64,000 nucleotides of DNA from Natrialba taiwanensis DSM 12281 (GTDB lineage: Archaea > Halobacteriota > Halobacteria > Halobacteriales > Natrialbaceae): the NCBI RefSeq assembly GCF_000337595.1, contig NZ_AOIL01000042.1:55903-119902 (forward strand), given 5' to 3'. Numbering within the stretch: the stretch's first letter is position 1; every line of letters starts with the position of its first letter. Under the pieces are notes generated by a model that worked only from the letters and a program-made list of their open reading frames with translations, ran no database searches and was not told where the DNA came from. Below, in pieces: positions 22,058 through 28,268 of the stretch. The position numbers and the translations under genes were made by a program.

Positions 22058-22597
22058 TCAACACGAGACCGACGTGTCCGTTTCGATGCCACTGTCTCCA
22101 ATAGTTAGCTTCGTCGTCCCCTCCTCGCAATCGTTTGGCGACCAGGTGGTGGTCGTTTTGCTTTCCAGTCCGTCGGCTTCGATCGCCACGTCGTAGGTGC
22201 CGCCGTCGGACAGTTCGATCACGAGTTCACTTGTGGCCGGGATTGCAACTTCCCGATCGAGGACCGAGTCGCCGTCGTGGTCGAGTTGGATCGTGATCGG
22301 GAGTTCCTCGTCGGTCGTGTTTTCGATGCGAATGCCGTACGCGTCATCCGCGACGGTCCAATCGTCTCCGCTGGATCGGCGTTCGAATCGATCGATCACG
22401 TCGGAGTCGTCGGGGATCGAGTCGAGGTCGCCTGCCGTCTGGGAGTCTGACGGGGAGTCGGTGTCGGTCGACGAGTCATCGCCATCGGGCCATGTGGTGC
22501 CGCTGAGACAGCCGGCGAGAGCGGCGAGACCGCCCGTCGCGCTGAGCGTGATGAACGTGCGTCGGTCCGGTCCACGGTCATCGAGATTCAGATCCAT
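22058..22597 (-). CDS. Tat-exported lipoprotein, function unknown
   Basis: A 179-residue protein with a twin-arginine signal (PDRRTFITLSATGG) and a lipobox LAALAGC at about residues 21-27, so it is probably exported folded and lipid-anchored at the Cys. A disordered Ser/Asp/Thr linker follows. A small beta domain then begins near residue 80 (DDAYGIRIENTTDEELPITI) and ends with three cysteines near the C-terminus. The start at 22597 is chosen because the signal peptide then has normal length; the frame is open to 22636. No binding motif is recognisable. It lies beside other cell-surface genes. Confidence 0.75.
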   Translation of the reverse strand: MDLNLDDRGPDRRTFITLSATGGLAALAGCLSGTTWPDGDDSSTDTDSPSDSQTAGDLDSIPDDSDVIDRFERRSSGDDWTVADDAYGIRIENTTDEELPITIQLDHDGDSVLDREVAIPATSELVIELSDGGTYDVAIEADGLESKTTTTWSPNDCEEGTTKLTIGDSGIETDTSVSC

Positions 22598-22987
22598 ATC
22601 GACAGCACACGAGCGCGCGTAATGGCCTTTTTTCACGGATTGAGAACGGTCAGGATGGGGAGACTGTCAACCCGTGGCTTTCGTTCCGGGAGGGAGGGGA
22701 CTACTGACGATGGCCGGTCGCACGTCTCCCGCAGTCAGTGGTGCTGACTGCAAGCGTTCACCCGGCGTCGAGTAGGTGGGAATTACACCGTTGTAGTGGA
22801 TACAACGGGTCCGATACGACGGCGTGGCGGGCCTGGTGTCGACAGCGTGGCGGCGGACGGGAAGCTACCGACAGCCATCACAAATGGTCACCTATCGAGA
22901 TGCAAGTCCACACTGAGCGTGCAAACGCCACGGGAGGTTATTATCATCGACAGGGAGCCACGAGTGCCCGTAGGGCAGTATTACCTC
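22598..22987. other. Intergenic region between divergent genes
   Basis: About 390 bases. TTATTATC at about 22938-22945 is the best promoter-like box for the plus-strand gene at 22988 and would give a leader of roughly 18-20 bases. Open frames reach upstream of 22988 but lack family or composition support. Confidence 0.45.
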
Positions 22988-23326
22988 ATGAGCGGAACAC
23001 ACTGGTTCGATTCGCATTCGCGCACAGTTTCACTGGTAGTCATCGTCGGGCTTCTCGCGATGGTGATTGGTGGTGGATTCACTGCGGCGGTCTCAGCCCA
23101 GTCGTCCGACGACAATGTCGCCGTCAACGAAACGATTACCAACGAGAGTTCACAGGAGATACTCGCGGAATCGATCGTCAACGAAACGTCCGAGACGGGA
23201 TCGGATGTTTCCGAGACGCCTGATCCGACGCTCCCTGCGCTTCCGGAGTTGGGTGATGGACTGTTCGATGAGAGCGTCGGCGATGAAGCCGGTAATGTCG
23301 TCGCTGACGACTGGTCCCCGTTCTGA
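22988..23326 (+). CDS. Small secreted protein, unknown function
   Basis: A 112-residue protein. Residues about 17-38 are a hydrophobic signal segment (TVSLVVIVGLLAMVIGGGF) with a possible cleavage site after AVSA near 40. The mature part is acidic and repetitive in character (NETITNESSQEILAES, IVNETSETGSD), then Pro-rich (PDPTLPALPELG), ending VADDWSPF. The longer open frame from 22796 is rejected because the signal peptide would become internal. It shares secretion and location with the repeat proteins that follow, but does not contain their Gln/Asn repeat, so participation in the same structure is only a possibility. Confidence 0.6.
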   Translation: MSGTHWFDSHSRTVSLVVIVGLLAMVIGGGFTAAVSAQSSDDNVAVNETITNESSQEILAESIVNETSETGSDVSETPDPTLPALPELGDGLFDESVGDEAGNVVADDWSPF

Positions 23327-23744: not shown

Positions 23745-25280
23745 TTACGCACCGACCCAGACGTTCGTTGAGGCGACAGCACCGAACTGAGCGTTTTCGT
23801 TCTCCTGAAGGGCCACCTGTGCGGAGTCAGCGGTGCCACCGTTTTCGGCGACGGCGATGGCGGCCTGCTGCTCGTTGATGTTCTCCTGGAGCACGTACTG
23901 GGACTGTTCGATCTGTGCGCTCGCTTCTTGCTCGACCTCGTTGGTCTGCTGTGCGTCGTAGTCGAACGCGATACCTGGTGCATCTTCGACGTCGCCGCCG
24001 CCGAGGGTCATGCTCGTCGTGTCGGAGTAGATGACACTGTCGTGCATGTAGCCCGGTCCGGCGTAGACGTTCAGCGCATCAGCGAACCCAATCTGCGTGT
24101 TGATGTTCTGCTGGTGGGCCAGCTGGATTGCGGTGGCTTCGCTGCCGTTAGTCGCGATTGCCATCGCAGTGCTCTGGAGGTTGACGTTCATCTGTTCGAC
24201 TTCCTGCGTCTGGCTGACGCTGGAGGTCGCCGTCTGAACGCCCTTGCCCTTCTTGTGATGGTCGTCGTCCTTCTTGTCCGACTCTTCACCGAGCGTCTCG
24301 GCCGCCTGTGCGGCTTCGTCCATCATCTCAGGGTTGTCGACACCCGCGGTGGCGATGGCCATGCCGGGCATCGACGAGAGGATGTTTTCGGCGTCCGCTT
24401 CGCCGATCTGCTCGTTGAAGTTGGTCTGTTCGGTGAGCTGGATCGCCGTCGCAGTGCTGTTGTTTCCGACAGCGATTGCGACTGCGCTGTCTTGCTCGTT
24501 GTAGTTCATCTGATCGGCGTTCTGGCCCTGCTCGACTGTGGCTTCGGCCGATTGATCGAGGAACTCGCCGCCACCCGCGTAGACGTTCGTGGCGTTTGCG
24601 ACTCCTTGCTGGAGGTTCTGGTTGGTCTGTTGGGACTGCTGGATCGAGAGCGCTTCGCTGTTGTTCGCCGCGAGGGCGAACGCGGTGCTTTGCTCGTTGT
24701 AGTTCAGTTGTCCAACGACCTGGCTCTGGGTGACTTCGGCTTCGGCAGCCTGGTCAGAGTCGACTTTACCCTTGTCACCTTTCTTGTCGGCAATACCCCA
24801 GCCGTCGAACTGCTTGCCGTCACCGTTCCCGATGACGACGTTGACAGTTCCGACATCCTCGAAGGAGGTCGATTCAGCCATCCCAGATCCGGCGAGCGCC
24901 TCACCGAACTGTTCGTTGTCGTTGTACTGGTTCGCCTCTTGGACAGCGGTTGCCTCGCCGCCGTCGATCGAGATGGACGTCGCGTTCGATTGTTGGTTGA
25001 TGTTAACCTGGTCGACGTCCTGGTACTGGCTTACTTCGGCATCGGTCTGTCCGGACGCCTGGGACTCGATGAACTCGTCGAGTGTTGTCCCGTTGAGGTC
25101 GGCCCCGAAGACCAGATACAGTTCTTCACCATTGTCGAGCGCGTGTACGCCGTTCGAACTCGGTGTGGTATCTTCACCGGCTGCGGCTGCGGGTGCCCCC
25201 GCAGCGAGCATCGATAAGGCGACGATACACGCCATCAGGACGGTCGTACATTGTGACCGTCTCGTCGTTGTGGTACTCAT
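23745..25280 (-). CDS. Secreted Gln/Asn-rich repeat protein, curlin-like pattern (fibre or amyloid subunit candidate)
   Basis: A 511-residue protein with a Sec-type signal peptide (MSTTTTRRSQCTTVLMACIV, then ALSMLAAGAPAAAA, cleavage near 34). Five units of about 50-58 residues lie at 81-131, 180-237, 246-302, 351-408 and 454-511. Each has a first half V-x-Q-x-Q-x-V-x-Q-x-N-x-N-x-Q, a middle A-x-A-I-A, and a second half Q-x3-Q-x-N-x-N-x-Q-x-G-x-A ending N-V-Y-A-G. Alternation of polar Q/N with other residues implies beta strands with stacked Q/N ladders, as in CsgA curlin repeats (S-x5-Q-x-G-x2-N-x-A-x3-Q), though I claim resemblance of pattern, not descent. Linkers between units are Lys/Asp/His-rich (DKKDDDHHKKGKG, about 335-347). 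The frame is open to 25382, but 25280 gives a proper signal peptide. Extracellular fibre formation is inference. Confidence 0.8.
   Translation of the reverse strand: MSTTTTRRSQCTTVLMACIVALSMLAAGAPAAAAGEDTTPSSNGVHALDNGEELYLVFGADLNGTTLDEFIESQASGQTDAEVSQYQDVDQVNINQQSNATSISIDGGEATAVQEANQYNDNEQFGEALAGSGMAESTSFEDVGTVNVVIGNGDGKQFDGWGIADKKGDKGKVDSDQAAEAEVTQSQVVGQLNYNEQSTAFALAANNSEALSIQQSQQTNQNLQQGVANATNVYAGGGEFLDQSAEATVEQGQNADQMNYNEQDSAVAIAVGNNSTATAIQLTEQTNFNEQIGEADAENILSSMPGMAIATAGVDNPEMMDEAAQAAETLGEESDKKDDDHHKKGKGVQTATSSVSQTQEVEQMNVNLQSTAMAIATNGSEATAIQLAHQQNINTQIGFADALNVYAGPGYMHDSVIYSDTTSMTLGGGDVEDAPGIAFDYDAQQTNEVEQEASAQIEQSQYVLQENINEQQAAIAVAENGGTADSAQVALQENENAQFGAVASTNVWVGA
23748..25040 (-). repeat. 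Five degenerate Q/N repeat units within the secreted protein
   Basis: Units by position: 24888-25040, 24570-24743, 24375-24545, 24057-24230 and 23748-23921. They keep the Q/N ladder and the Gly of Q-x-G-x-A but differ elsewhere, so the duplications are old and function appears to hold the ladder constant. Unit 5 ends exactly at the C-terminus. Confidence 0.75.
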
Positions 25281-25898
25281 GTTTCGTTTGATCCGTGCCG
25301 TGAGAGTCTTTTGTTTCTGCACCTCCACGGCGCAAATCGTCGTATCTTGATGACAGACTTTGTTATCTGGTAGTTGCCGCATCGATGGAAGGGCCTACCG
25401 CGCGGAAGCCGGTAGCTTATTTCGCGAAGGTAGTGACTATTCACGGCTGAGCGGCACAAACAGGCCAAATACACGTTGCAAACCGACAGAACGTATTATG
25501 ATAGTACCAGCCCTGAACAACGTATTATGATCGAAGAAACTGTTTCAGCGACCGAATCCTTCACTTACTCCCTGTAGAACTGGTCTTGTCGATCATCACG
25601 ATTCTGGCGGCTGACGAGGTAATCGCTGACCGAGAGTAAGAGTTAGCAACAGAAGCACTATGCCGATAGTACCATTTATAGGCTCTCGTTCAGCTCACTG
25701 TCTGGGTGTGCTCACTACTATAGTCTCGGTTTCAGGGCGACAAATCCGACTATTCGACGTGAAACCGTTGTCCGGGTTCAAGTACGACTCGGTGATGAGT
25801 AGCGACCGGGCACCGCGTCACACTAGCAGCAGGATCTATCCATCACAAGCCGCCGTCCCGTGTGGGACGTATGACGCGTGGCCTCAGAAAGCAACACT
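25281..25898. promoter_or_regulatory. 618-base divergent regulatory region between the two repeat-protein genes
   Basis: Long intergenic region separating the oppositely transcribed 511-residue and 178-residue repeat proteins. It holds a direct repeat of AACGTATTATGAT (25490-25502 and 25519-25531) and the decamer GATAGTACCA twice (near 25500 and 25665), the second followed by TTTATAG, a TATA-like box. No gene is supported. The length and repeats suggest controlled expression of the pair. Confidence 0.5.
25490..25531. repeat. 13-bp direct repeat AACGTATTATGAT, period 29 bp
   Basis: Two perfect copies start 29 bases apart, close to three helical turns, in the shared upstream region of the repeat-protein genes. 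This spacing suits two activator or repressor dimers on one DNA face. Function is inference. Confidence 0.55.
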
Positions 25899-26435
25899 AT
25901 GAAACGTACACTCACGCTCACACTGGCAGTAGCGCTAATTGGGAGCCTCATGTTCATGGGGTTCACAGGAATGGCTGCAGCACAGAACGACACTAACTTG
26001 GAGTCTGGCAATGCAACGACCACTGCTGAAGTCAATCAGGACAATACCAACTCTCAAACGGGTATTGCAACTGCAATGAGCGCCGGTGCAGATGACGGTG
26101 CTTCTGACCACCACGACCACCACAAGGCCGACGATTCTGCCTCGGCTGGAGGCGCTGAGGCTGGAGTCACTCAGGCCCAGGATGTCAGCCAGGTCAACAC
26201 CGCTGAAATCAACCAAAACGCTGAAACGGGCGATGTCACCAATGAGGAAACGGAAGCACCCGCAGATGACGGTGCCGAAGACGGTGCCGAAGACGGTGAC
26301 CTTGAGGAACGAGTGTCTGATCTTGAAGATGACGTGACGGAAATCGAGGACAGTCTCATTGACCTCGAGGCTACGGTCGGTGACCTCGAGGCTACGGTCG
26401 ATGACCTCGTCGGTGAGGTCGGACTCGACGTCTAA
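25899..26435 (+). CDS. Secreted minor repeat protein with one permuted Q/N unit and a coiled coil
   Basis: A 178-residue protein with a Sec signal (MKRTLTLTLAVALIGSLMFM, cleavage near AAAQ at 29). Residues 43-63 (AEVNQDNTNSQTGIATAMSA) match the second half of the 511-residue protein's repeat (Q-x-N-x-N-x-Q-x-G-x-A-x-A). A His/Asp segment follows (SDHHDHHKADDS, 69-80), and residues 88-108 (AGVTQAQDVSQVNTAEINQN) match the first half. This second-half, His-linker, first-half order equals the stretch from unit 3 to unit 4 of the larger protein. An acidic linker (112-134) leads to a heptad coiled coil (135-172: LEERVSDLEDDVTEIEDSL and on). It is divergently transcribed from the larger gene. It could nucleate, cap or anchor a fibre made by the larger protein. 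GTG 25878 is an alternative start. Confidence 0.78.
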   Translation: MKRTLTLTLAVALIGSLMFMGFTGMAAAQNDTNLESGNATTTAEVNQDNTNSQTGIATAMSAGADDGASDHHDHHKADDSASAGGAEAGVTQAQDVSQVNTAEINQNAETGDVTNEETEAPADDGAEDGAEDGDLEERVSDLEDDVTEIEDSLIDLEATVGDLEATVDDLVGEVGLDV

Positions 26436-26704: not shown

Positions 26705-28087
26705 TCAGTCAGCCTTGATGGCGGCCGCCTCTGCCCGCCGAATCACCTCTCGAATCGCAAACCCGCTTTTCCGAGCAACCGCGCTGGCATCGTCATACTC
26801 CGCACTCACGTCGTACACCTCGCCAGCACTGTCGCTTGCAACTTTCACCGTCACCTCGTAGGTGTCGCCCGCGAGTTCAACGGCGGCCGTTCTGAACTCG
26901 CGCTGGGCGATCCAGCGGTGGGTTGCGCCGGCATCGCGGACCCCCAGCGTTCCGGTCTCCTCGGCCAGTCGCCTGGCAACTCGCCGTCTGTCCTCGGGTT
27001 TGCAGATTACCTTCACGAGGTGGCCAGGGCGGGATTTCTTCATCGTGACCGGAAGGATTGAGACATCACGCGCGCCCGCATCGGCCAGGGTGTCCTGCAG
27101 ACCGCCCAGAACCTCGGGAGGAGCGTCGTCGAGGTTCGTCTCGAGGACGGCGATATCGTCTTTCACCAGTCCGCCGCCACCCTCGCCGACCAGGACGCGG
27201 AGCACGTTCGGGTGGGGGTCGAGGTCGTAGCCGCCGGCACCGTAGCCGGCGTTTGTGAGTTCGAGTTCGGGAAGCGAGTCGACGCCGTCGGCGACGTGGG
27301 CGAGGATGGCAGCGCCGGTGGGGGTGAGCAGTTCGGCGTCGACGGGGCCGCCTCGGAGTGCCCAGTCGGCGTCCGCCGCGAGTTCGGCGACGGCGGGTGT
27401 GGGGATGGGATACTCGCCGTGGGCCATTGAAGCGGAGCCGCCGCCGGTCGCGAGGGGTGTCGTCACGACGCGGTCCGGGTCCAGATCGTGGAGGAGGACA
27501 ACTGTGCCGACGATATCCGCGATGGCGTCGTCGGCACCGACCTCGTGGAAGTGGATGTCTTCGAGAGCCGTGCCGTGAACGCTGGCTTCGGCCTCGCCGA
27601 GGCGTTCGAAGATGGCGAGGGCATCGCGCTCGATGGGCTCAGGGAGCCCCATCGCGTCGACGATAGCACGGACTTCCTGATAGCTGCGATGAGGGCCGTG
27701 ACCTTCGGCGTGCGTGTGGTCGTCGTGGCTGGTGTGGTCGTCGTGGCGATGTTGTCCCTGCGTGTGCTCGTGTGCGTGTTCGTGTTCGCGCTTCTGGTTG
27801 TCCTCGGCTGCCTCCGCAGCCGTCTCCGCCGAATCCGCATCAGTATCGGCGTCTGCATCAGCATCCGCGTCCGCCCCACTGTCGGACTCGGACCGTTCGT
27901 CGGTGAGAACCACATCGACCGTCGTTCCCGTGATTCCGCACTTGTCCGCCTCGGCGATGCGGTATTCGACTGCGAGTTCGTCCGTGATGAACTCGAGGCG
28001 GTCGGGATCAGCGCCGGCATCGAGGAGGGCGGCGAGGAGCATGTCGCCGCTTGCACCCATGCGGCCGTCGAAGGCGAGTAGCGTCAT
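26705..28087 (-). CDS. larC: LarC: nickel insertion into the pincer cofactor
   Basis: A 460-residue protein starting MTLLAFDGRMGASGDMLLAA, the LarC family N-terminus. Later it has ALAIFERLGEAEASVHG, FHEVGADDAIADIVGT and the C-terminal domain from about 290 (VLETNLDDAPPEVLGGLQDT). LarC inserts nickel into pyridinium-3,5-bisthiocarboxylate mononucleotide using CTP, making the cofactor of lactate racemase-type enzymes. An Asp/Ala-rich stretch (about 70-95) and a His-rich stretch with twelve His (about 101-133) are inserted in the N-terminal half, fitting nickel storage or delivery. The longer frame to 28255 is rejected because homology starts at 28087. No larA, larB or larE lies in the window. 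The symbol is secure at family level. Confidence 0.9.
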   Translation of the reverse strand: MTLLAFDGRMGASGDMLLAALLDAGADPDRLEFITDELAVEYRIAEADKCGITGTTVDVVLTDERSESDSGADADADADADTDADSAETAAEAAEDNQKREHEHAHEHTQGQHRHDDHTSHDDHTHAEGHGPHRSYQEVRAIVDAMGLPEPIERDALAIFERLGEAEASVHGTALEDIHFHEVGADDAIADIVGTVVLLHDLDPDRVVTTPLATGGGSASMAHGEYPIPTPAVAELAADADWALRGGPVDAELLTPTGAAILAHVADGVDSLPELELTNAGYGAGGYDLDPHPNVLRVLVGEGGGGLVKDDIAVLETNLDDAPPEVLGGLQDTLADAGARDVSILPVTMKKSRPGHLVKVICKPEDRRRVARRLAEETGTLGVRDAGATHRWIAQREFRTAAVELAGDTYEVTVKVASDSAGEVYDVSAEYDDASAVARKSGFAIREVIRRAEAAAIKAD

Positions 28088-28232
28088 CGTGATATACGTA
28101 TGGAGTCGGTGCCGAGCGCAAAAAGCCATCTTCTCGAGACTGCCCGGTGACGACGAGCGCGAGTCCGTGACCGTGAGTCTTTCTCCGATTCTCTCAAAAC
28201 CCACCGCCGTCGACACTTCTATGTAGCTTCCA

Positions 28233-28250
28233 ACCAAACATAGATTTGGT
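28233..28250. promoter_or_regulatory. Perfect inverted repeat over the CDC48 promoter
   Basis: ACCAAA-CATAGA-TTTGGT, two six-base arms around a six-base spacer. The spacer lies 25-30 bases before the ATG at 28269, where the TATA box of a leaderless transcript should be. A protein bound here would cover the promoter. No regulator is known to me for it. Confidence 0.45.
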
Positions 28251-28268
28251 AGCACCTAGCAAACTCAG

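Follow-up and report, generated by a model that had tools for sequence, protein, structure and literature searches.

The described systems closest to the genes reported here are bacterial. In curli (PDB 8c50, 8enq) the major subunit CsgA and the minor subunit CsgB are encoded in one operon, five repeats of about 22 residues carry Gln/Asn ladders, and the last repeat is C-terminal; the inner repeats of CsgA carry gatekeeper residues, and repeats 1 and 5 aggregate (PMC12822426). FapC and FapB of Pseudomonas (PDB 9u4u, 9nqd) form another major/minor pair, in which FapC has three repeats, a Greek-key rung with polar and hydrophobic cores, and long linkers (PMC12822426). An archaeal amyloid-like precedent is the secreted sheath protein SH of Methanospirillum hungatei, an envelope polymer of amyloid-like beta-arches (PMC10593813). 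The biofilm matrix of Haloferax volcanii binds amyloid dyes (PMC4180959), and the literature that we searched contained no identified haloarchaeal fibre subunit.

Here we describe a pair of genes that is conserved in Natrialbaceae and so far without a name. We propose that they encode a two-component secreted beta-solenoid system, whose subunits would stack end to end into an amyloid-like fibre or layer together with a one-rung partner, a reading to which we give roughly even odds (about 0.5). Our literature searches returned no paper on this protein family; a member may have been glimpsed before, as curli-like repeats have been mentioned in a single archaeal protein, left unnamed (PMC3521004), which cannot be matched to it. 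New here are the turn sequons for N-glycosylation in units 2-4, the variants with a PGF-CTERM anchor or a Tat-type signal, an upstream element of 19 bp that is conserved, and a distant likeness between two non-repeat segments of the large protein.

The gene pair

The window analysed is a stretch of 64,000 nucleotides from the 4.6-Mb haloarchaeal genome of Natrialba taiwanensis, and all coordinates refer to it. The gene of the large protein, P0001 (511 amino acids), lies at 23745-25280 on the minus strand and that of the small protein, P0002 (178 amino acids), at 25899-26435 on the plus strand; the two diverge from a common intergenic region of 618 bp between their start codons (25281-25898). 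An earlier note on this DNA had reported this arrangement, with signal peptides on both proteins, and the re-checked coordinates are correct; read by eye, both N-termini are of Sec type (approximately residues 1-34 in P0001). A twin-arginine reading of the P0001 N-terminus is unlikely because its first arginine is not conserved. P0001 and P0002 are very probably a secreted pair. P0001 is 94-95% identical to the large proteins of Natrialba asiatica and N. aegyptia, and sequence searches against Pfam, NCBIfam, PHROGs and the PDB yielded no family for it. Near the two genes we recognised neither a chaperone nor an exporter dedicated to them. Two more exported-looking small proteins adjoin the pair (22058-22636 and 22796-23326), one with a lipobox-like LAGC and one with a signal peptide.

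Repeat anatomy of the large protein

Behind its signal peptide, P0001 is made of a conserved N-terminal segment and five 53-residue units with Gln/Asn/Ala ladders, with which it ends. The five Q/N-ladder repeats that the earlier note had read from the sequence are borne out by the strict motif Q-x3-Q-x-N-x-[NL]-x-Q, which occurs 10 times in the protein (at residues 87, 114, 187, 214, 253, 281, 359, 386, 461 and 488), against a mean of 0.006 copies, and never more than one, in 20,000 composition-preserving shuffles. Each unit consists of two homologous halves of 27 residues, A and B, in identical register and nearly free of indels. All on the minus strand, the units occupy residues 81-133 (unit 1, 24882-25040), 181-233 (unit 2, 24582-24740), 247-299 (unit 3, 24384-24542), 353-405 (unit 4, 24066-24224) and 455-507 (unit 5, 23760-23918). 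Unit 2 has an N-glycosylation sequon at the turn between halves A and B, units 3 and 4 also carry a turn sequon, a variable loop rich in K, D and H precedes unit 4, and the protein stops four residues after unit 5, without a C-terminal cap.

Two conserved non-repeat segments flank unit 1. The first, at residues 45-77 (25050-25148, minus strand), has the pattern HALxNGEELYLVFGADL...LxExI and is a possible N-cap; the second is an insert at residues 138-172 (24765-24869, minus strand) with the pattern FEDVGxVxxVxGNGDGxxFDGWG. The two are distantly alike (hhalign E 2e-4, probability 46%).

Over 202 units from 42 relatives, Gln makes up 32%, Ala 29% and Asn 21% of the residues at the positions predicted to point inward, where the mean entropy is 0.48 bits, against 2.63 bits at other positions. 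Since the inward positions were picked from conservation, this contrast is a description of the pattern and no test of it. Hydrophobic residues account for at least 93% at each of the outward positions 14, 21 and 23, which gives every unit one polar face and one hydrophobic one. Indels sit between units, in inserts that are either rich in K, D and H or conserved, and almost never within units, as in-register stacking would require.

Predicted structure

The regular beta architecture that had been expected of the repeats is what AlphaFold2 predicts from a 42-sequence alignment: all ten half-repeats are beta, and most unit blocks have pLDDT values of 80-89. The mean pLDDT of the P0001 model is 61, with low values in the inserts, termini and loops, and the overall arrangement of the units is uncertain. 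Foldseek found no significant match in the PDB for the whole model, the non-significant top ranks being FapC (E 0.74, the best), SufB/SufD and P. korlensis CsgA. VIA gave Z values of 8.1 for SufD, 8.0 for a chain of the M. jannaschii SMS complex, 6.7 for CsgA (8c50) and 2.7 for FapC, none of them above what the tool reports for common arrangements; a fold that it does not list is not thereby shown to be absent. SufB and SufD share a beta-helix core with the model and gave the best Z, but they are cytosolic Fe-S assembly proteins without a ladder repeat. For a fragment comprising units 2-3, two FapC structures headed the Foldseek ranking (E 0.079 and 0.69) and E. coli CsgA came in eleventh place, again without significance, and VIA returned no match with Z of 2 or more; because the fragment also folds less confidently than the same region within the whole chain, it contributes hardly more than the rank of FapC. 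Going by these models, the large protein is likely to be a beta-solenoid; the FapC and CsgA ranks hint at an amyloid-type rung but do not prove one.

The acidity of P0001 (pI 4.05), its low-confidence loops and the great variability of the small proteins would also suit low-complexity acidic secreted proteins without a regular fold, which owe their Gln and Asn to halophilic composition. Against such an origin stand the exact 27-residue register, the Gln and Asn residues that are invariant across families, the nearly indel-free units, the five-fold entropy contrast and the confident beta prediction, and we regard it as improbable.

Comparison with curli, Fap and archaeal proteins

The earlier note had likened the repeats to curlin. 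Points of resemblance are the Gln/Asn ladders, five units, a C-terminal last repeat and a major/minor layout; the half-repeats are predicted to be beta, and CsgA is among the non-significant top folds. Kinship in sequence is not seen. The curlin profile PF07012 (repeat S-x5-Q-x-G-x2-N-x-A-x3-Q), which the note had named for comparison, matches nothing in 97 genomes of the class, that of the window included. A profile of the CsgA/CsgB repeats gives P0001 3.3 bits, against 6.7 at the 95th percentile of shuffles and 176 for CsgA itself, and hhalign produced no alignment with curlin. CsgG (PF03783) is absent from 21 genomes, again including this one; archaea have no outer membrane, so that CsgG may not be an applicable marker. 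Moreover, the archaeal rung has 53 residues, compared with about 22 in curli, and another motif, the large protein carries N-glycosylation sequons, and the genes are divergent, whereas those of curli form one operon. Curli membership was rejected on PF07012, hhalign and the CsgA/CsgB profile, CsgG being absent as well. A diverged haloarchaeal CsgA/CsgB pair, in favour of which the archaeal protein of PMC3521004 could also be counted, is thus refuted at the sequence level and so improbable that we give it hardly any weight. In its way of working the pair may resemble curli or Fap, without being curli itself.

In its layout of few constant units, long linkers and a Gln/Asn core, the large protein is closest to FapC. 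Both have a small, constant number of imperfect repeats and a minor partner and, going by the predicted fold of the archaeal protein, one rung per repeat and an Asn/Gln hydrogen-bond core with a hydrophobic patch. FapC is the top-ranked PDB fold for both models, in matches that are non-significant, and has three units, compared with five of 53 residues. The archaeal protein also differs in having no cysteine when mature and no outer membrane to cross. Two of our profiles (A3 and A6), searched against PDB chain sequences on the assumption that 9u4u and 9nqd were among them, did not list FapC at E values up to 10, and no partner genes of a fap operon (FapF, FapD) are annotated in four plasmid neighbourhoods. 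Compared by description only, SH resembles the large protein in being archaeal and secreted but builds rings of antiparallel arches, has no Gln/Asn ladder repeat described and comes from a methanogen. The Haloferax volcanii matrix is likewise haloarchaeal and extracellular, but the large-protein family was found only in Natrialbaceae, Haladaptatus, Halomicrococcus and Halocatena.

Distribution and co-occurrence

Relatives bearing the units were found in 55 of 74 sampled Natrialbaceae genomes and in 3 of 218 other Halobacteria, nearly always with exactly five units per gene, and a phylum-wide genome sample yielded units only in Natrialbaceae. Plasmid records add members from Haladaptatus and Halomicrococcus, and Halocatena has a distant one; in the searches run, the family is found only in these three genera and Natrialbaceae. 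IMG/VR yielded no sign of a viral origin. In Natronorubrum bangense two loci of equal length and match score (L060 and L061), one of them chromosomal and the other on an 828-kb plasmid, reflect either a recent duplication or an assembly effect.

That the pair would co-occur in other genomes, as the earlier note had anticipated, is what we observe. Among the 35 main-branch loci with enough flanking sequence, counted by hand, small ladder genes with a signal peptide, one to three of them, diverge from the large gene within 2 kb of it in 32; the exceptions are L058, L069, whose partner is 3.8 kb away, and L082. A small partner also adjoins the large gene in a second family, Haladaptataceae, and every genome with a match in one small-protein search has the large gene. 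Functional coupling of the two genes is likely. Common to 22-25 Natrialbaceae loci is a neighbourhood with two genes that, from recognition of their sequences, we take to encode a LarC-like protein and a CDC48-type AAA ATPase, which suggests vertical inheritance. The LarC-like gene of the window (26705-28255) carries an inserted low-complexity stretch rich in Asp, Ala and Glu and in His, and adjoins the small gene in many relatives.

The small protein

P0002 contains one B-like and one A-like half-repeat, a His-rich linker and a C-terminal coiled-coil-like segment (approximately residues 131-174). The earlier note had credited it with a copy of both half-repeats, which holds in part: with profiles built from large proteins only, the mature protein scores 11.9 bits for the half-repeat, against at most 8.6 in 2,000 shuffles, and 15.3 bits for the whole unit, against 8.2 in shuffles, but its halves are weak, truncated and in the order B then A, and the strict motif is absent. 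Its weak library matches fall mostly in the signal peptide or the coiled coil. The small proteins of relatives are highly variable in sequence and differ in the order and number of halves; those of Haladaptatus, and the copies adjoining the large gene of Haloterrigena salina (L063), are one complete canonical unit next to a large gene.

Probable glycosylation, anchoring and a putative assembly mechanism

Among 35 Sec-type members, the turns of units 2, 3 and 4 carry an N-x-S/T sequon in 27, 24 and 32 cases, compared with 0 and 5 for units 1 and 5, and about 0.08 expected per segment. The turns of the middle three units are probably N-glycosylated, judging from these sequons, and by analogy the glycans could act as the gatekeeper residues of CsgA do. 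A branch of the large protein with Tat-like signals (L083-L088 and L090), in which several members have Lys-rich tails, is almost without turn sequons and has no upstream small partner. A PGF-CTERM tail, absent from P0001, occurs in 3 of 42 aligned relatives and is also annotated in Natrononativus and Halomicrococcus.

In a Halomicrococcus member (L107, 6001-7800) the PGF-CTERM tail is preceded by a long HEHPHD repeat, rich in His. Loops of P0001 and P0002 have His clusters too, which suggests that metal is bound. Since His/Lys/Asp-rich loops recur in large and small proteins, the solenoid might be a scaffold that displays them to metal ions or polysaccharide; the sequence and length of these loops vary, however, some members lack them, and we hold this to be a slim possibility.

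The main rival to polymerisation is a discrete cell-surface beta-solenoid, such as an adhesin, a spacer or an S-layer-associated glycoprotein, for which the small proteins would be separate secreted ligands or co-factors sharing the repeat by descent. The PGF-CTERM-anchored members, the conserved non-repeat segments on either side of unit 1, the constant number of five units and the sequons at three turns would suit a non-polymerising surface protein equally well. Against it, main-branch proteins stop right after unit 5 without tail, anchor or cap, and a partner gene with a single rung of its own is hard to explain without rung-to-rung contact. We consider such a discrete solenoid a real, if less than probable, alternative.

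The two-component polymerising system that we prefer would work as follows. Both proteins would leave the cell by Sec. In the large one, five rungs of 53 residues would be stacked with little but Gln, Asn and Ala facing inward, and the polar side chains would thereby line up as in-register ladders. The long loops between rungs would carry the K/D/H-rich or small conserved inserts, and glycans would probably occupy the turns of the middle three. With the C-terminal rung uncapped and sequons rare at the turns in rungs 1 and 5, free edges would be left on which subunits could stack end to end into an amyloid-like fibre or layer, at the surface or in the matrix; we put the chance of such stacking at even or slightly below. 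The divergently encoded one-rung protein may start, cap or co-assemble with this polymer, a role as nucleator or cap being rather doubtful. In some lineages a PGF-CTERM tail would anchor the solenoid, or Tat would export the large protein. Only tentatively do we extend this to an independently evolved archaeal functional amyloid, with a major subunit of five Gln/Asn-ladder rungs that Sec would export across a single membrane, N-glycans keeping the middle rungs apart, bare polymerising ends and a divergently transcribed one-rung nucleator or cap.

If the large protein polymerises, a Gln/Asn-ladder amyloid solution would have arisen with no curli or Fap ancestry that can be detected, and glycans would replace the acidic gatekeeper residues reported for CsgA. 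The family thus offers a specific candidate fibre subunit for the amyloid-dye-positive biofilms of haloarchaea (PMC4180959), with the merits of being conserved in one large clade, of having a genetically coupled one-rung partner and of including anchored variants as natural controls. For one carrier species, Natrinema gari, whose type strain JCM 14663 has the pair (L067), CRISPR-based genome editing has been published (PMC10433800).

Upstream DNA

The intergenic region holds a 19-bp imperfect palindrome, GATAACAAAGTCTGTCATC as read towards the large gene (25349-25367), 87 bp before the start codon of that gene. Of 23 related upstream regions that were compared, most have it at -86/-87, and it is conserved across many genera; with up to 2 mismatches allowed, it is a single copy in the genome. 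A reading frame conserved ahead of the start codon was considered as an N-terminal extension of the protein and rejected: in translated alignments it is conserved only in patches and does not persist in every lineage, which suggests regulatory DNA instead. A stretch resembling GTGTGNTGCGTGCC recurs upstream of many of the small genes of relatives and is possibly a second control element; the copy in the window (25860-25898) is degenerate.
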